From contig JAFWMR010000012.1 in assembly GCA_017513905.1 (NCBI GenBank), positions 1 to 39,933 of the forward strand: 39,933 bases of DNA, given 5' to 3'. A program made the position numbers and the translations under genes. Every line of letters starts with the position of its first letter. The stretch's first letter is position 1. Shown one piece after another: positions 1,200 to 26,916 of this stretch. The DNA comes from Candidatus Saccharimonadota bacterium (GTDB taxonomy: Bacteria > Patescibacteriota > Saccharimonadia > Saccharimonadales > Saccharimonadaceae). A model generated the notes under the pieces. It saw nothing but the letters and a program-made list of their open reading frames with translations. It was not told the origin of the DNA and made no database searches.

Positions 1200-1814
1200 C
1201 TATTTAATGATTTTGTCGATAATCCCGTAAGAAAGAGCTTCTTCGGCGGACATCCAGTTATCACGATCCATATCTTTTTCGACTTGCTCGAGTTTTTTGC
1301 CGGTGTTTTTGGCAAAAATCTCGGCGAGGCGTTTCTTAAGGAACACGCCTTCGCGAAGCATGATTTCTTGGTCAGTAATCTTCCCTTCTGTGCCGGAGGA
1401 TGGTTGATGGATCATGATACGTGCATTCGGTAAGCAATAACGATGGCCCTTTGCTCCGCTAGATAAGAGCATGGCGCCCATAGAGGCTTGGAGACCAATA
1501 CCGATTGTTTCGACATCTGGCTCGACGAAATTCATGGTGTCGATAATGGCTAGGCCGTCGTAAACAGAGCCGCCTGGAGAGTTGATATAGAGCTTAATGG
1601 GCTTTTTTGGATCTTCATGAGCAAGGAATAGAAGTTGCGCGACGACTAGGTTGGCCGTATGCGGATTGACGTCTTCGCCGAGAAAAATAATGCGATCGGT
1701 GAGAAGCCTTGAGTAGATGTCATAAGCACGCTCGCCGCGATTGGTTTCTTCGACTACGGTTGGGACGAGATAATCTAGATTTTTAGATGTTGGGGTAAGG
1801 ATTTTTTTATTCAT
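1200..1814 (-). CDS. clpP: ATP-dependent Clp protease proteolytic subunit ClpP
   Basis: This is the serine peptidase that forms the barrel of the Clp protease; substrates are unfolded and threaded in by ClpC. The 204-residue length is usual. The catalytic triad is visible: Ser111 in GLQASMGA, His136 in MIHQP and Asp185 in DRDNWM. The oligomerisation region with YINSPGGSV is intact. There is a good Shine-Dalgarno (AAAGGAAA). The gene follows a membrane HExxH protein, which itself overlaps the end of clpC, so the protease and its ATPase sit in one probable transcript with a third protein between them. No clear terminator follows; the next promoter begins within 50 bases. Confidence 0.97.
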
Positions 1815-1828
1815 ATGATTTCCTTTCT

Positions 1829-2872
1829 TTATTCTTCAATCTGTGTGGTTGACGAGTTAGAGTTGATGATACTTTGAAGTTCGGATGAACGGATGATGGA
1901 TGAGTTATAGACATCTGCTTTTGAGTTGTAGGTATTAATGAGAGCGTTGACTGCAGTGTTTTCGGCATTTAAGGCTTGTTGTTCGGTGACGAGTTCGGCT
2001 CGGCGAGCATAGAAAGCGTAGGATGATGCGAAACAACCAGCTTTATTGGCGCAAGTATTGAATTCGCCAACGGCTGCGTCAAAAGCAGCAACACGGGCGT
2101 CAAGAGCAGAAGACCTTTTCTCGATTTCTTTTTTTAGCGTTTCTAGCTCGGAGCCAAGTTTGGTGATTTGCTCCTTTAGTTCATTGAATGGAGCAATGTA
2201 GGAGGCATAAAAAGCGGTGATAATATCTTGGTCAGTAAAATATTTGGCATAGTGTTTTTCTAGAGCGTCTGGAAGTTTAGCGATTTGAGTGGCTGCACGG
2301 ACGTAAAGTTCACCGATTTGTTCCTCGACGGGATATGATTCGATTATCTCCTCGAGACTTTCTGAGTGTTCTGAATAAACTTGCTCAAGAATAGGGACGA
2401 GTTCGGATTTTTCAAGACCAGGCAAGCGGGTCCAGACGGCATGGAGGAATTCGTGAGCTGCGGTCGACTCGCGGATGCCACTTAGCGAATCGTCGTCGAC
2501 GTTATAAACGTAGATTCTGTCGCTCGTATAACAGCCGAGGACGGAAACGGCTTCGTCGTGAGACTCGCATGACATGTTGAAATCGTCGCGCGAGGCAAGA
2601 ATTGGGTGGGTAGCGTTGAAAATACGAGTGCCCTCCGAGGTCAAATGCAATGAATTGCGAACTGCCCACATATCCGGAGTAGGATTGTAGCCAATGCCTT
2701 TAAAGGCATCGATAATGGCCGTATGATAGAGCAAAAAAATGACAACTAAAACAATGGCGATAATAGGGGTAAAAATCCAAAAATGATGTTTTTTTGTCGC
2801 AAAATCCGTACGCGCTTCGTTCATTTGAATTGATGGGAGATTTTGTGGTATATTTTGAGCCATACTAGGCAT
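1829..2872 (-). CDS. Membrane-anchored HExxH zincin-like protein with coiled coil
   Basis: This is a probable membrane-bound metallopeptidase of unknown substrate. Of 347 residues, about 32-49 form one transmembrane segment after a basic KKHH stretch, which suggests the rest is outside the membrane. Residues 140-144 read HEFLH, a HExxH zinc-binding motif preceded by STAA. A Glu in GELYVR (about residue 188) is a plausible third ligand. Two Cys (about 102 and 114) lie before the motif. Residues about 210-270 form a heptad-rich coiled coil, and the tail is Ser/Asn-rich. The start overlaps the clpC stop by 8 bases (a second ATG three codons later is also possible), and clpP begins 14 bases after its stop. 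Activity is inferred from the motif only. Confidence 0.8.
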
Positions 2873-5348
2873 GTTCTACCCCTAATTTGAGTTGATTTTT
2901 GCTAACCGTGACGGCGGCGACGTCACCTTTTTTGAGCTGACCTTTGATAATTGCTTCAGATAGTAATGATTCAAGATTGTCCTCGATGGCGCGACGAAGC
3001 GGTCGAGCACCGTTTTTTGGGTCAAAGCCACGATCGATGAGATATTTTTTGACCTTATCATCGATCTTCAAGCCGAGGTTTTTGGTGGCGAGACGTTTTT
3101 TGAGGTCGGAGATGAGATTGTCGAAGATACGCTCAACATTTGCTTCTGTTAATGGACGGAACACGAGGATAGAATCGAGACGGTTAATAAGCTCTGGGCG
3201 CATAGCTTTTTTCAAGGCTTTCATGGCATATTCTTTTGATTCTTCATACTCACGGTCAAGTTCTTTTTTAGTCTTTTTACCATTTGTTTTTTCTGCAAAA
3301 CCAAAAGAGTCGTCGCGATAGGCGTCATTGGCGCCGAGGTTTGATGTCAAAATGACGATAGTGTTGTTGAATTTGATTTTGTTTCCCTGCCCGTCAGTTA
3401 GAATGCCGTCTTCGAGAATTTGAAGGAGCATATTAAAGACATCCGGGTGGGCTTTTTCGATTTCGTCAAATAGGACAACGGAATATGGACGACGGCGGAC
3501 CGATTCGGTGAGTTTGCCACCATCATCATAGCCTATATATCCAGCTGGAGCACCAACAAGACGAGATACGTTGTGTTTTTCGCCAAATTCAGACATGTCG
3601 ATTTTAATAAGGGCATTGTCGCCACCGAACACTTCACGAGCGATGACGCGAGCGAGTTCGGTCTTACCTACGCCGGTTGGGCCCATAAATAGGAAGGAGC
3701 CGATAGGGCGGGCGGCATTAGTAATGCCAGAACGACCGCGACGAATAGCTTTGGCGACGGAACTAACGGCTTCGTCTTGACCAATGATGGATTTTTTGAG
3801 ATGAGACTCGAGATTGGCAAGTAGCTCCATTTCATCGCCGTGGACTTTAGAAACAGGGATGCCGGTTTTAAGAGAAATGGCGGTGGCGAGGTTTTCTTCC
3901 GTTAAGACAGGAATATCTTCTTCTTTGACGCCTTTCTTTTCGAGTTCTTTAATTTTTGCCTTGGTTTGCTCGACTTTAGTCTTAAATTCTGCTGCAGCTT
4001 GGTAATCATCTTTTTCGGCAGATGACTCCATTTTGTCTTCTAAGGTACCGAGTTCGATTTTGAGCTTTTTTAGTTCCCCGCCGCCCTTTTTGTCGGCTTC
4101 GACTTTAGCAATAGCAGAGGCCTCATCAATAACATCGATGGCTTTGTCGGGCATAAATCGATCGTTGATGTAACGGCTAGACATATTGATAGCTGTTTCT
4201 AAGATTTCATCTGGTATGGAAACGCCGTGATGTTTTTCGTAATGGGATTTAATACCTTTTAAGATACGAAGTGTAACGCCAGGCGCTGGTTCTTCGACAA
4301 TAACAGTTTGGAAGCGGCGAGAGAGGGCTTTGTCTTTTTCGATATGTTTGCGGTATTCGTCGAGCGTAGTGGCACCGATAAGGCGGATTTTGCCACGAGC
4401 CAGAGCAGGCTTTAAGATGTTGGCGGCGTCCATGGTCCCCTCGCTAGATCCTGCACCGGATAGGAGGTGGAGTTCGTCGATAAATAGAAGAATAGAGTCA
4501 TCAGACGAAGCTTCATCAATGATACCTTTGATACGCTCTTCGAATTCGCCGCGATACTTGGTGCCGGCGAGAAGCGAGCTAAGGTCGACTTGATAAATAT
4601 GTTTACCGATTAAAAGGCTTGGGACTTCGTTCTTGACGATTTTCTGAGCGAGACCCTCGACGATAGCGGTTTTACCAACACCAGCCTCGCCAATTAAAAC
4701 TGGATTCGATTTGGTGCGGCGGCAAAGGACCGTAACGGTGCGTTCGATTTCTTGATCGCGGCCAATGACATTATCTAGTTTACCGGTGCGTGCCATTTCT
4801 GTAAGGTCTGCGCCGAATCGAGATAACCAGCGAAGAGGAGTTTTTCGGGCGTATTTTTGCTTTTCCTTGGAGAATTTGGCGGCTTCAGCTTGTCTGTCGA
4901 CGAGTTTCTCGATTTCGTCAGCTAGCTCATCTAGGTTGACACTGAGTTTTTCGAGGAGAGAGGCAGCGTTAGAATTTCCTTGGTTAATAAGGGCGTAGAG
5001 AAGATGTTCCGTACCGATAGTTTCTAGACCTTGATCGCGAACAAAGTTGCGTGCCATCTGTAAAGTCAAAATAGTGGATTCGGATAGCGACATCATTGCC
5101 ATTTGACCTTCATTTGTTGTGTCGACAGCTGGTTTGCCTAGGGCTTTTTCGGCATCTTCTAGAGTTACATGCCAGTTGAATAGGAGTTTGGCCCCTTCGC
5201 TGGCGTCCATAGCAAGGATACCTAGGAGCAGATATTCAGTACCCATGTATCCTTTATTATATTTCTTGGAATAAAAATCGGCTTTCTGGAGCGAGAAACG
5301 AGCGTTCTCGGAGAGATGATTCATAATATCGGAGAATTCGTCTTGCAT
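2865..5348 (-). CDS. clpC: Clp protease ATP-binding subunit ClpC (Hsp100 AAA+ unfoldase)
   Basis: This ATPase unfolds damaged or tagged proteins and feeds them to ClpP. In order, the 827 residues show a double Clp-N domain (about 5-150), AAA+ module 1 with Walker A GEAGVGKT (220-227) and Walker B LLFIDE (287-292), a middle domain with a UVR-like coiled coil (about 425-470) typical of ClpC, AAA+ module 2 with Walker A GPTGVGKT (556-563), and the C-terminal D2-small domain. No part looks missing. The start is 7 bases after a consensus TATAAT, so the message is probably leaderless. A CIRCE operator covers the -35, pointing to HrcA heat-shock repression. The end overlaps the membrane zincin gene. 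Confidence 0.97.
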
Positions 5349-5355
5349 ATGCTCT

Positions 5356-5393
5356 ATTATATATAATTAGCAGTCGCAAGTCAAGAGTGCTAA
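5356..5393 (-). promoter_or_regulatory. clpC promoter with overlapping CIRCE operator
   Basis: TTGACT (5379-5384), a 17-base spacer and TATAAT (5356-5361) form a near-consensus promoter. Across it lies TTAGCAGTC (5367-5375), 9 bases, then GAGTGCTAA (5385-5393). The CIRCE consensus for HrcA is TTAGCACTC-N9-GAGTGCTAA, so 17 of 18 arm bases match with exact spacing. HrcA binding here would occlude the -35 box. Confidence 0.85.
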
Positions 5394-5399
5394 AAACAA

Positions 5400-5432
5400 T
5401 AAAAAATGCCCCGTTCTCGATGAGAGCGGGGC
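5400..5432 (-). terminator. Rho-independent terminator after the gene at 5482
   Basis: An 11-base stem (5408-5432, loop GAT) is followed on the minus strand by a T-rich run. It separates the accessory gene pair from the clpC promoter. Confidence 0.85.
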
Positions 5433-5481
5433 TGGGGGTGGGAGGGGATTATGCGGAGCGGGCTGTATGGCAGCTGAGGCT

Positions 5482-6123
5482 TTAAGCCGATTCCGCAGGA
5501 TTGTTGTAGCTGCGCCGAATGGGCCAGAGGGTGATTACCAGATGCTTGAGCATGCTGGGATCATAAGCAAACAATTTCAGCAGTTCCTGGCGTTTGTCGG
5601 GATTACCGATGCTATCAAGCCGATGGCGCAGGATTTCTTCCCGCAGGTCGAAACCCTTGTCATCAAGACCGCCACCGTAGTAGTTGCAGTAGTTGCCGGC
5701 GCTCCGGCAAGCTTGCATTGCTGCGAACAGCTCAGCAAGGTTTTGGAACGTATCAGCAAAGCGCGGACTAATCTCGTGGCGCGAATTTGCGAAAATGGTT
5801 GCATTCCAGCGCTCAGGTTTGAGCTCTTGGTGCAAACGCTCGATTGTAGCGTCAAATTCTGCCTTCATCAGTCCTTCCCTTGCGGGCTGCTGATAGATAC
5901 CATTGCACGGATACCGACGCAAAATTTCTGCAATGTCTTTCTGAGTAATGACGGGGAAGACGTATTCTGTATCTGAGGCCTTGTTGCATTTCGAGATCAA
6001 CCTGACCTCGATTTCGTCGGGATGGAACTCTTTCAAGATAACGACGACGTTGCCGTTGTCGTTATCGATTCGGGCTTCCCATGCCCACCATACGTTGTGC
6101 ATGTATTTATTGTCGCCGTTCAT
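5482..6123 (-). CDS. Uncharacterised 213-residue soluble protein
   Basis: I do not recognise a family. The protein has no signal peptide or membrane segment and looks cytoplasmic. It starts with an aromatic-rich stretch (HNVWWAWEAR), has a central region rich in Glu, Arg and Leu that looks helical, and a Cys/Tyr cluster (ACRSAGNYCNYYGGG, about residues 137-151). A clear Shine-Dalgarno (AAAGGAG) lies 8 bases before the ATG. It follows the gene at 6169-6573 after a 45-base gap and ends in a strong hairpin terminator, so the two probably form one transcript. It belongs to the class of small accessory genes in this window that have their own promoter and terminator. Confidence 0.7.
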   Translation of the reverse strand: MNGDNKYMHNVWWAWEARIDNDNGNVVVILKEFHPDEIEVRLISKCNKASDTEYVFPVITQKDIAEILRRYPCNGIYQQPAREGLMKAEFDATIERLHQELKPERWNATIFANSRHEISPRFADTFQNLAELFAAMQACRSAGNYCNYYGGGLDDKGFDLREEILRHRLDSIGNPDKRQELLKLFAYDPSMLKHLVITLWPIRRSYNNPAESA

Positions 6124-22998: not shown

Positions 22999-24474
22999 TT
23001 ACTTGTATTCTACACCGGTGCCAGAGTAAAAGGCTGGAATGGCCGAAATCCAGGTTTTGCCTGGAACGAGCTTGACGTCGTTCCCCTCTTTGTCGCGGAA
23101 AACAATTTGAGATTCCTTAGAGGATTTTTCCCAAGTCCCATTTATGACAGTGCCATTTTGAAAGATATAAGCGTCGCCGGCGCCGGTCGTCGAGATGTCT
23201 TCGTGGTAATTATCATAGGAGGCTTTGCGTTCCTGAACTATCATGCCAATGACTGTATTGGCGGTTATCTGAACTTCTTCGCAGACCAGTTCCGGAGTGA
23301 CTTCCTCAGTTTTGCCGGTGCAGTCGTAGCTGGTATGAATTTGGCCGGTTTCGTAGGAGCGTTTATAGGTGTTAGTATCGGTATCATAATCGTAGACCGG
23401 GTTGAAGTTTGGCATGACTCCGATCCGCATAGTAATATGTGTGACTTTTGGCGCGAGTGCATCGGTATCTCCAGATGATGGTTGGTCGATCTTCAGCTTT
23501 TCTTTAGCTTGGACATCTATTTTGTTGCGATTGGCTTCGACTGGAGTAAATCTGGAGAAAGATTTGATATCAGAAGAGAGATATCCGTTGATAGTATTGA
23601 AACCATTTAGATATTCATTAGAAGTAAAGAGGTTATTCCACAAGCGTTGGACAGTGTAATTGGTAGACGATCGCCACATGTATGCATAGTTCTCTGTCAG
23701 GTCTCGAACGCCATATTTCTTAACGGCGTCAAGAGCTTCGTTTGAACCGCCGGCGTGAACAACTGTGCAATCAAAAGGCAGATCCCAGTTGAGATAATAG
23801 AGTCTGAGCGAACGAATAGGCCCGATTACGGCGGGTGGGTCTTGGAAGATGGCCGCAAAGCGCGTGATGCCAGATTCGGCGATAGCTTCAAAAACGACCT
23901 GAGCGTCTTGGAGACCGGCTTGAGGGCGAGCTCCATCCACGCCGTTAGGAATTTGAACACAGAAGGTGGGGTGAGAGTTGATCTCTTCCGAAGTGATTTC
24001 TAGACCAGAAAGACGGGAATAGTAATGCGGTACGTCCGGCTCTTCCTCCGTGATGTCAGGGGTGATAATGACTTCTGGTTCTGGTTCAACTTCTTCGATT
24101 GGGGCTTTGCCCATCAGCTCATCAACGTTGCCATGAAAGACTACGAAAAAAACAACAACAAGCCCGAGGATAAAAATACCGACGGAGGATAGGGAGATGA
24201 TGAGGACTTTTTTTGATTGCTTTTCCTCTGGAGTTTTTTTGGGTAATTTAAGATTTTTGACGCGCTCTTTTGCCATTTTTTTGGCAAGAGTTTCGGCTTC
24301 CGCCTCTTCCTCGTCAACATCGTCTTCTTCGTCGTTATCGTCTTTTGGCCTTGGTTCGGTTGCGGGCTGGGTTTCTGGACTAGGTGTTTCAGTGGTTGGA
24401 GTTTCCTGGACCGCAGCTTCTGGAATAGGAGTTTCTTCTGGAGCCGCATTTGGTAGAGGAGGAGTATCTTGCAT
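22999..24474 (-). CDS. DUF3048 (YerB-like) membrane-anchored protein
   Basis: This 491-residue protein has an acidic, Pro/Thr/Glu-rich N-terminal region (about 1-60), a basic stretch with Lys-rich KKMAKERVKNLKLPKK (about 63-80), a transmembrane helix (about 88-110) and an extracytoplasmic part. The outer part carries the DUF3048 core: FCVQIPNGVDGARPQAGL (about 170-187), VVFEAIAESGITRFAAIF and GPIRSLRLYYL, then a C-terminal half ending with KLVPGKTWISAIP. YerB-type proteins are envelope proteins of unclear function. The unusual N-terminal extension puts the tail in the cytoplasm. The ATG lies 6 bases after an extended -10 (TGA-TATACT), so it is probably leaderless. Confidence 0.88.
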   Translation of the reverse strand: MQDTPPLPNAAPEETPIPEAAVQETPTTETPSPETQPATEPRPKDDNDEEDDVDEEEAEAETLAKKMAKERVKNLKLPKKTPEEKQSKKVLIISLSSVGIFILGLVVVFFVVFHGNVDELMGKAPIEEVEPEPEVIITPDITEEEPDVPHYYSRLSGLEITSEEINSHPTFCVQIPNGVDGARPQAGLQDAQVVFEAIAESGITRFAAIFQDPPAVIGPIRSLRLYYLNWDLPFDCTVVHAGGSNEALDAVKKYGVRDLTENYAYMWRSSTNYTVQRLWNNLFTSNEYLNGFNTINGYLSSDIKSFSRFTPVEANRNKIDVQAKEKLKIDQPSSGDTDALAPKVTHITMRIGVMPNFNPVYDYDTDTNTYKRSYETGQIHTSYDCTGKTEEVTPELVCEEVQITANTVIGMIVQERKASYDNYHEDISTTGAGDAYIFQNGTVINGTWEKSSKESQIVFRDKEGNDVKLVPGKTWISAIPAFYSGTGVEYK

Positions 24475-24518: not shown

Positions 24519-25976
24519 CTATTGTTGGTCCAGCAATAAGGCGTTTTTTACCTTGCCGAGTCTCGACATAGTAACTTCTTTGCCAAGGACATTTAACGTA
24601 AGATCGAGCGCTGGGGAAAATGGCGCAAATGAGACAGAAATGCGAATTAGACTGAAGAGCTCAGCTGGTTTTTTGCCGGTGGTTTTCAATAGTTCGTTGA
24701 GAGCGTTTTTGAGGTTCTCTTCACTCCAGTCGTCGATGGATGATAGTTTCGCCGTGACGGTTTCAAGAAGCGAGGCGAGCTCTTGTTCGGATAATTTCTT
24801 GACAAATTTATTCGTGAGAAGCTGTTCAATATCGAATTTCGGATCTTCGAAGAAATAACCAGTCATTTCGCGAAGATCAGAAAGAGTCTTAAGGCGATCG
24901 TAGATGATAGCTAGGACACGTTTCTTGTAGCTATCGTCGTACGACTTGGCGGATTTAGGCCAAAAACTTACGGTTCTTTCATAAAAAGCGTCAATTCCCT
25001 GTTCATCGACGAGTTTTCTAATCCATTGGCCGTTCATCCAAAGTAATTTGACTTCGTCATAACGTGCGCCGGAATTTTGGATACGATCGAGTGAGAACTT
25101 CTCTATAAGTTCAGACTTTGTATAAATTTCTTGTTCAGTGCCGTCGTTCCATCCTAAGCAGGCGAGGTAATTCAACATTGCTTCTGGCAAAACACCGTCA
25201 TCACGATATTCTGTGACAGACTTGGCGCCATCGCGCTTACCAAGTTTTTTGTTTCCTTGTGGTGCAAGGATGTGGGGCAGAGAGACAAGGAGAGGCTGTT
25301 CGATACCGAAAGCTTCGTATAAAGCAAGATAATTAGGAGTACTAGACAGATATTCGACGCCGCGAGCAACCATATTCACGTTCATGAGAAAGTCGTCGAC
25401 GATATGAGCAAAGTTGTAGGTTGGCAGCCCATCTTTTTTGATAAGGACAATATCATCTTGAACTTCAGGGCCAGCGGAGAGATTTCCCATGACTTCGTCA
25501 TGCCATTTTCTGGGTTTCGGGTCGGATTTGAAGCGGATTGGCATGCCTGGTTGCCATTCTGGTGAGTTTTCTGGACGATGATTGCGATAGAGGTATGGGA
25601 CTTTCTTGGCATTATCTTCGTCACGGTAACTTTGAATGGTGTTAGGATCGGTTGGGTCGGCGTAGGCGCGACCGTCGGCTATGAGCTTTTTGGCCCATTC
25701 TAGATAGAGATCTTTTCGCTCGGTTTGAAAGTATGGAGCGTGGGGACCACCAATTTCTGGACCTTCGTCCCACTCGAGCCCGAGCCATTTCAAGGTGTCC
25801 ATGATAAGTTCAGTAGCACCTTTAACGTAACGGGCTTGGTCTGTATCTTCAATGCGAAGAATGAATGTACCACCAGACTGGCGTGCTGCTAGATATGGGT
25901 AAATAGCGGAACGGACGTTGCCGATATGGATGTAGCCCGTTGGAGACGGTGCAAAACGAGTGATGATCTTTTTCAT
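24519..25976 (-). CDS. gltX: Glutamyl-tRNA synthetase
   Basis: This class I synthetase charges tRNA-Glu. The 485 residues start with FAPSPTGYIHIGNVRSA: the HIGH motif reads HIGN (17-20). The second motif reads KLGKRDG (about 243), where KLSKR is usual. The Rossmann catalytic core and the C-terminal helical anticodon-binding domain are both complete. It may also charge tRNA-Gln if the organism uses GatCAB, which the window cannot show. Both tRNA-Glu isoacceptors lie about 5 kb away. The ATG lies 7 bases after TATAAT with no Shine-Dalgarno, so it is probably leaderless. Its -35 sits in the loop of the terminator of the upstream gene. Confidence 0.96.
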   Translation of the reverse strand: MKKIITRFAPSPTGYIHIGNVRSAIYPYLAARQSGGTFILRIEDTDQARYVKGATELIMDTLKWLGLEWDEGPEIGGPHAPYFQTERKDLYLEWAKKLIADGRAYADPTDPNTIQSYRDEDNAKKVPYLYRNHRPENSPEWQPGMPIRFKSDPKPRKWHDEVMGNLSAGPEVQDDIVLIKKDGLPTYNFAHIVDDFLMNVNMVARGVEYLSSTPNYLALYEAFGIEQPLLVSLPHILAPQGNKKLGKRDGAKSVTEYRDDGVLPEAMLNYLACLGWNDGTEQEIYTKSELIEKFSLDRIQNSGARYDEVKLLWMNGQWIRKLVDEQGIDAFYERTVSFWPKSAKSYDDSYKKRVLAIIYDRLKTLSDLREMTGYFFEDPKFDIEQLLTNKFVKKLSEQELASLLETVTAKLSSIDDWSEENLKNALNELLKTTGKKPAELFSLIRISVSFAPFSPALDLTLNVLGKEVTMSRLGKVKNALLLDQQ

Positions 25977-26031: not shown

Positions 26032-26916
26032 TTATAATGATGTAACTATGGATTTAATCTGTTTCTTGGTTAGGTTATTACCCGAGGCATTGATTTTGTA
26101 GAGAATATTACCATTAATCCAAGCGGCATCGCTGCCTGCGATGAAGATGGTAATGCCCTGCTCACGGACTGAGGTGTAATTGTTACCCCAAGTACTTTTA
26201 ACGTAAGACGCCTCAAGGGTATCGTTGTCCCAAGAAGTTTTTTCTTCGGAAATAGTAAAGGATCCACTTTCTGAATCGCTGAAGGTCATGGAAATCTTTT
26301 TGTCTTCGGATACTATATCCGATAATGAATAACCGCGAGGAACGTAGGTAGGATAGGTCGCGTCAATACCGGTCTGCATAGCGGCGACACGTACGGAAAT
26401 ATCAGGTGTATTAACGGATACGAAGTAGCCGACGGCACCTACAACGAGAGCAGCACAACCGAAAGCAAGCAATAACTTCTTGGCTCCGAGGGAGCGTTTG
26501 CTAGTGATGGCTGGAGTAGCATTTTCTGCTTCTATAGTAGCAACGGACTTGAGCGCAGATTTTACGGCGCTATCTTTGACTGCTTTAGCCTTCTCGGTCT
26601 TAGGTGAAGTGATGAGGTTCTTTTCAATAGTTACTGAAATTGGGCTGGATTTGGAACCTGTTGCGGCTGGTGTAGCAGCGGCTTCACGGAGAGTTTTGCC
26701 AGCTTTGAGTGAAGCTAGGCGTTCCCGATTAATTTTATCAGCTAATGCTTGACGTCGTTTGAGATCTTCTGCGCGGCGTTTAGCAACAGAATCAATAGCA
26801 GCAACTTTCTCTGGTCTCTTGACGTATTTCCTATTCAAGGTCGTCGAGCGCTGGGTACGACGGTGAGACGCGGAACTCGAGATGCTAGTGCGATTGACGC
26901 TTTGATCTTTATCCAT
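26032..26916 (-). CDS. Membrane-anchored protein with DUF4367-like domain
   Basis: Residues 1-145 are long, strongly basic and low in complexity (Arg, Lys, Ala and Ser-rich), probably disordered in the cytoplasm. A transmembrane helix follows (about 147-168). The outer part, about 185-294, resembles DUF4367: TYVPRGYSL, then SFTISEEKTSWD, REQGITIFIAG, AAWINGNILYKI and a final helix. These domains are found in envelope and anti-sigma-like proteins; the role here is unknown. The ATG lies 7 bases after TATAAT (26924-26929), so it is probably leaderless. A hairpin terminator ends the unit just before gltX. Confidence 0.78.
   Translation of the reverse strand: MDKDQSVNRTSISSSASHRRTQRSTTLNRKYVKRPEKVAAIDSVAKRRAEDLKRRQALADKINRERLASLKAGKTLREAAATPAATGSKSSPISVTIEKNLITSPKTEKAKAVKDSAVKSALKSVATIEAENATPAITSKRSLGAKKLLLAFGCAALVVGAVGYFVSVNTPDISVRVAAMQTGIDATYPTYVPRGYSLSDIVSEDKKISMTFSDSESGSFTISEEKTSWDNDTLEASYVKSTWGNNYTSVREQGITIFIAGSDAAWINGNILYKINASGNNLTKKQIKSIVTSL

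Follow-up and report, generated by a model that had tools for sequence, protein, structure and literature searches.

The CIRCE element and the promoter of clpC

This locus raises the question of whether an HrcA operator placed on the promoter of a clpC gene, itself predicted to start without a leader, is genuine and, if so, whether it puts a Clp ATPase under the class I heat-shock repressor. The window, i.e., the whole stretch of DNA analysed (39,933 nucleotides of contig JAFWMR010000012.1 from a Candidatus Saccharimonadota bacterium), carries at positions 5367-5393 the plus-strand sequence TTAGCAGTCGCAAGTCAAGAGTGCTAA. This is an inverted repeat, TTAGCAGTC-N9-GAGTGCTAA, one mismatch away from the CIRCE consensus TTAGCACTC-N9-GAGTGCTAA, and it is the sole match at three or fewer mismatches in the window, where 0.03 would be expected by chance (100 shuffles). 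The motif scan and the comparison with relatives confirm the element, palindromic and assigned to the minus strand of clpC, as a genuine sequence feature. The mismatched base in the arm is probably not a sequencing error, since 3 of the 27 clpC promoters of the window's genus (G000, G102, and G129) share the same base.

Along the minus strand, the CIRCE (5393-5367) embeds in its spacer the -35 hexamer TTGACT (5379-5384), recognized in the sequence and by a promoter scan; 17 nucleotides separate it from the -10 hexamer TATAAT (5356-5361), and seven more (5349-5355), without a Shine-Dalgarno sequence, lead to the clpC ATG at 5348. The promoter is of the sigma-70 type (11/12) and is the single promoter match in the region 5000-5800, where shuffles gave a mean of 0.7. 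The operator of HrcA/CIRCE regulons is thus present here at a promoter and overlaps its -35. In this respect, the original prediction of a one-mismatch CIRCE overlapping the -35 and the spacer of clpC was correct, the stretch 5356-5393 running exactly from the -10 through the CIRCE. Upstream, a terminator-like hairpin (5432-5408) followed by a T-rich tail (5407-5394) occupies positions 5394-5432 of the same strand; it separates the clpC promoter from the gene before it and so sets clpC apart. A simple terminator scan of 5000-5800 reported nothing, whereas folding revealed this strong hairpin with its T run (-17.5 kcal/mol, z -4.6).

The gene itself (2865-5348, minus strand) encodes an Hsp100 ATPase of 827 amino acids, whose Pfam matches are Clp_N, AAA, AAA_2, and ClpB_D2-small. 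It combines Clp_N with two AAA modules and takes the name ClpC from its closest relatives of solved structure, which are ClpC proteins (E 1e-210); the curated NCBIfam models of ClpB and ClpA also match it, none of them over the cut-off. A UVR motif in the middle domain is a feature of ClpC, and no Pfam UVR match was obtained at E 0.001, although the middle segment aligns with the ClpC of S. aureus. The end of clpC is overlapped by an ORF of 347 amino acids taken from the ORF list (1829-2872, minus strand), which has no Pfam or NCBIfam match and is likely co-transcribed with clpC. Then comes clpP (1200-1814, minus strand), assigned by family models; this contiguity, with clpC overlapping the ORF that precedes clpP, makes it probable that clpP belongs to the clpC operon and is co-regulated with it.

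The CIRCE-bearing genes of the genome

The original prediction implied an hrcA gene and the same element at groES and dnaK. Both were found in the assembly (919,513 bases, 98.95% complete): hrcA lies on contig C23, its product matching Pfam HrcA and HrcA_DNA-bdg over the cut-off, and the operator is common to hrcA, dnaK, and groESL, being present at dnaJ as well. In all, the motif scan at three or fewer mismatches disclosed seven places in the genome, namely dnaJ, dnaK (two), clpC, groESL, hrcA-grpE, and one inside a coding sequence of contig C21. The last one (C21:63896), with three mismatches, was dropped as probably due to chance.

Counted along the CIRCE, the -35 starts at position 10 in clpC, hrcA, dnaJ, and the upstream element of dnaK, and at position 15 in groES. 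In three of the five promoters (clpC, dnaJ, and hrcA), the ATG follows the -10 by 6-7 nucleotides with no Shine-Dalgarno sequence, which is a leaderless-type layout; dnaK and groES have leaders with a Shine-Dalgarno sequence. The two CIRCE elements of dnaK are about 49 bp apart (near 3289 and 3338 of locus L008), one lying over the -35 and the other in the leader.

A compact HrcA

HrcA matches were retrieved from 143 of the 147 genomes of the class, none of the 147 exceeding the TIGR00331 cut-off. The protein of the window's genome aligns to this model in two pieces of 118.3 and 61.9 bits, against a cut-off of 197.2. Among the matches displayed, the first piece ends at about model position 78-125 and the second begins at about 177-206; since the matches are split in this way, a middle stretch of the model is missing. 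The protein has 249 amino acids from the ATG in the window's genome (L001:367-1113) and 229-239 in the other sequences aligned, for a model of 338 positions. The alignment included 25 of 31 hrcA loci, the other six having no usable frame or start. Of 30 hrcA loci, 27 had an open frame; because five or more of the starts were called wrongly, CIRCE elements at hrcA are not counted class-wide.

The fold is that of HrcA: the structure model (pLDDT 89.4) retrieved as best Foldseek hit 1stz (E 4.7e-13, TM 0.78 over the query), a solved structure named as an HrcA homologue. Judging from model matches and lengths, the HrcA of the class is a compact form and not a TIGR00331 equivalog. The structure 1stz is that of a T. 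maritima protein with an inserted dimerising domain, and it is possible that the compact HrcA has lost this domain, on which nothing was found in the literature searched. In four genomes (G025, G042, G048, and G133), a second search, run without a positive control of its own, also gave no HrcA match. One of them, G133 (locus L030), belongs to the window's genus and carries a CIRCE at clpC; the lack of an HrcA match in both searches may reflect a gap in an assembly that is 97% complete, or else a real loss of the gene.

Conservation of the operator

The N-terminus of ClpC was found in 140 of the 147 class genomes (seven gave no clpC match, and second clpC-like matches per genome were dropped), and about 500 bp upstream of clpC were retrieved in all 140, the end of a contig limiting one stretch to 322 bp. 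A CIRCE with no more than four mismatches is present in 115 of these 140 regions, 69 times without any mismatch; the reversed motif, used as a control, is never found at this threshold (0/140, best five mismatches). Within the window's order (families f1-f16), the operator is present in 106 of 111 genomes, the exceptions being G085, G140, G141, G050, and G052. Outside it, three families carry it (f18, 3/3; f20, 5/6; f22, 1/1), and f17 (0/12) and seven other single-genome families (0/7) do not. All 30 genomes of the window's genus have CIRCE sites at two or fewer mismatches, with no reversed-motif site in any of them, and the same threshold holds for all seven named relatives retrieved, five of which are ruminant gut assemblies and at least one of which (L182) is identical in sequence to one of the 140.

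In the 115 clpC sites, the arms of the repeat are near-invariant and the N9 spacer is variable; substitutions are similarly frequent at the paired positions 3 and 25 (15/115 and 16/115), as in a palindrome. The fitted -35 starts at CIRCE position 10 in 68 sites, 12 in 31, 13 in two, 14 in ten, and 15 in four, i.e., always within positions 10-15, the fit having permitted starts at positions 6-24 of the CIRCE only; in 109 of the 115 the promoter has a penalty of 4.5 or less. The link between HrcA and clpC is dispensable, because 25 of the 140 genomes lack the CIRCE at clpC and 24 of these 25 (all but G025) still have an HrcA match. In 23 of the 25, nusA lies on the same strand within the upstream stretch retrieved, as it also does in 46 of the 115 genomes with the operator.

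Among Patescibacteria of other classes, a CIRCE at four or fewer mismatches accompanies the Clp-like match in 17 of 60 genomes, and the reversed motif in none. These 60 were drawn from 109 matched genomes, 20 being those whose loci had been retrieved and 40 being chosen by hand, mostly in score order; the region considered was the stretch around the match plus about 560 bp upstream of it, and some matches lie in short frames, so that the start of clpC is not certain for each. At four loci of Patescibacteria outside the class (L239, L236, L246, and L249), the start of a short ORF lies between the CIRCE and the clp ATPase, resembling McsA-type zinc-motif proteins. In Firmicutes, the gene order is ctsR-mcsA-mcsB-clpC, and by analogy these loci look as if HrcA had taken the place of CtsR in such an operon.

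The predicted leaderless start of clpC

The seven nucleotides between TATAAT and the ATG, together with the lack of a Shine-Dalgarno sequence, correspond to what is expected of a leaderless start (a -10 about 6-10 nucleotides from the ATG), and this distance fits the prediction that clpC is leaderless or nearly so, with an expected leader of 0-2 nucleotides. In the class, the leaderless layout (ATG 5-11 nucleotides past the -10) is found at clpC in 34 of the 115 CIRCE-bearing genomes: 27/27 in the window's genus, 3/7 in genus g8, 3/3 in family f7, and 1/2 in family f9, G054 being counted by virtue of an upstream in-frame ATG. In the remaining CIRCE-bearing genomes, the ATG lies at least 25 nucleotides past the -10. 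The operator is therefore widespread and its leaderless placement restricted, a distribution that, as far as these counts show, suggests a later and repeated change.

It might be argued that the CIRCE is real and that clpC is nonetheless transcribed with a leader or starts at a second site, in which case only the leaderless part of the reading would be wrong. A second in-frame Met occurs at residue 9, and in other genera the clpC start is mostly 25-240 nucleotides past the -10. However, all 27 genomes of the window's genus keep 6-10 nucleotides between the clpC -10 and the ATG, no Shine-Dalgarno sequence precedes that ATG, and hrcA and dnaJ of the same genome share the layout, so that we consider a leader or a second start unlikely.

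A -10-like hexamer 5-11 nucleotides before the ATG was seen in 8 of 37 starts of the window, clpC included, the starts having been hand-picked from the ORF list and the count having no chance control. For four other ORFs (22999-24474, 24519-25976, 26032-26916, and, on the minus strand, 522-1145), the hexamer is 6-7 nucleotides from the ATG. The layout is thus probably used elsewhere in the genome, where leaderless genes would be frequent. The idea that a leaderless start is special to clpC was dropped, hrcA and dnaJ being alike and similar starts recurring in the window. Accordingly, the original prediction, which had regarded an HrcA operator on a leaderless clpC as notable, stands as far as the arrangement is concerned, but the arrangement is the norm of the lineage and leaderless-type starts are common.

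In three of the genomes lacking the operator (G085, G141, and G140; loci L084, L091, and L100), clpC lies downstream of nusA and has TATAAT right before its ATG; these would apparently be leaderless promoters released from HrcA.

CtsR and other possible regulators

A different reading would have clpC mainly under CtsR or another heat-shock regulator, with the CIRCE playing a secondary role. No CtsR gene was found in the 147 class genomes with two Pfam families, a search in which, of 14 control genomes, only Lactococcus lactis matched and B. subtilis did not. B. subtilis does have CtsR; the family search, positive in a single control, may therefore have missed it in the class too. Likewise, a CtsR box (a tandem heptad operator) was found in none of the 140 clpC upstream regions. 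CtsR control was consequently rejected on the two families and the operator, all negative, the control of the family search being weak. The comparison of regulators covers CtsR; in addition, the genome encodes a sigma factor, perhaps the housekeeping one, with a match to the rpoH model that stays under the cut-off. The clpC promoter, on the other hand, resembles the ordinary sigma-70 type. CtsR control of clpC is known in Firmicutes, for instance in L. plantarum, according to the portion of PMC3842655 available; for the clpC examined here, a main regulator other than HrcA seems highly improbable.

That the clpC CIRCE is a chance or relic match without HrcA control, as its one mismatch, the 25 of 140 relatives managing without it, and the probable chance match within a coding sequence of the same genome might suggest, is scarcely credible, given the 0.03 matches expected in the window, the 115 against 0 for the reversed motif, and the conservation of the arms while the spacer varies.

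Comparison with known systems

The class I regulons of Bacillus, Lactobacillus, and Chlamydia have the same operator consensus, as given in the available parts of PMC3842655 and PMC8762339. Here too, hrcA has its own CIRCE and groESL and dnaK are targets. The present system differs from them in having clpC as a conserved target, in the location of the -35 inside the CIRCE at five promoters of this genome, in the leaderless type of three of these five, and in the shortness of HrcA. As in the CtsR system of Firmicutes, clpC would be under a dedicated stress repressor (in L. plantarum CtsR, as reported in the accessible text of PMC3842655), but here the operator is that of HrcA, and neither CtsR, searched for with a weak gene-level control, nor its box was found.

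Another reduced genome, that of Mycoplasma gallisepticum, has CIRCE elements at clpB and lon besides dnaK and dnaJ (PMC4245973, in part); Clp/Lon genes come under CIRCE in both, clpB and lon there and clpC with clpP here, and no link between CIRCE and leaderless starts appears in the portion of PMC4245973 available. In Bifidobacterium, CIRCE elements at groES, groEL, and hrcA are described, which is shared with the present genome, but clpC is listed under the activator ClgR and not under HrcA (PMC9004370, from the available extract). The TM7x transcriptome deals with chaperone and clp expression, HrcA being unmentioned in the accessible part of PMC10768705.

A model for clpC regulation and its significance

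We consider it very probable that the element is a functional HrcA operator placing clpC, and probably clpP downstream of it, in the class I heat-shock regulon. What is observed comprises the element, its conservation, the geometry of the promoter, the presence of hrcA, and the genes that bear the operator; from it we infer HrcA binding, repression, heat induction, the transcription start, and the operon extent at clpC. At normal temperature, HrcA bound to the CIRCE would cover the -35 embedded in the spacer and keep the sigma-70-type RNA polymerase off. Upon heat or protein stress, HrcA would lose its DNA binding, and the polymerase would start just before the ATG, yielding a leaderless or near-leaderless clpC mRNA alongside the transcripts of hrcA-grpE, dnaK, dnaJ, and groESL. 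By blocking RNA polymerase at clpC-(ORF)-clpP, HrcA would do the job that CtsR does in Firmicutes, and a single repressor would tie folding to proteolysis, spanning the shares that HrcA and CtsR have there. The switch is of a known kind, its target set in these bacteria is a variant, and its function is presumed from sequence.

A broader conjecture is offered tentatively, and we regard it as rather doubtful: Patescibacteria might run a one-repressor circuit in which a compact HrcA governs both folding (groESL, dnaK, dnaJ, and grpE) and ClpCP proteolysis, and the leaderless CIRCE promoters of the window's genus might have been kept because their mRNAs are translatable when ordinary initiation fails under stress.

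Patescibacteria are host-dependent and genome-reduced, and the literature searched yielded no paper on HrcA in Saccharibacteria or other Patescibacteria, nor a description of their HrcA heat-shock regulation. The analysis provides a set of promoters in which operator and -35 are interlocked, and the class-wide link between HrcA and clpC would represent a concrete regulon for cultured Saccharibacteria. It also suggests that the role of CtsR may be replaceable by HrcA, with folding and proteolysis placed under one sensor.
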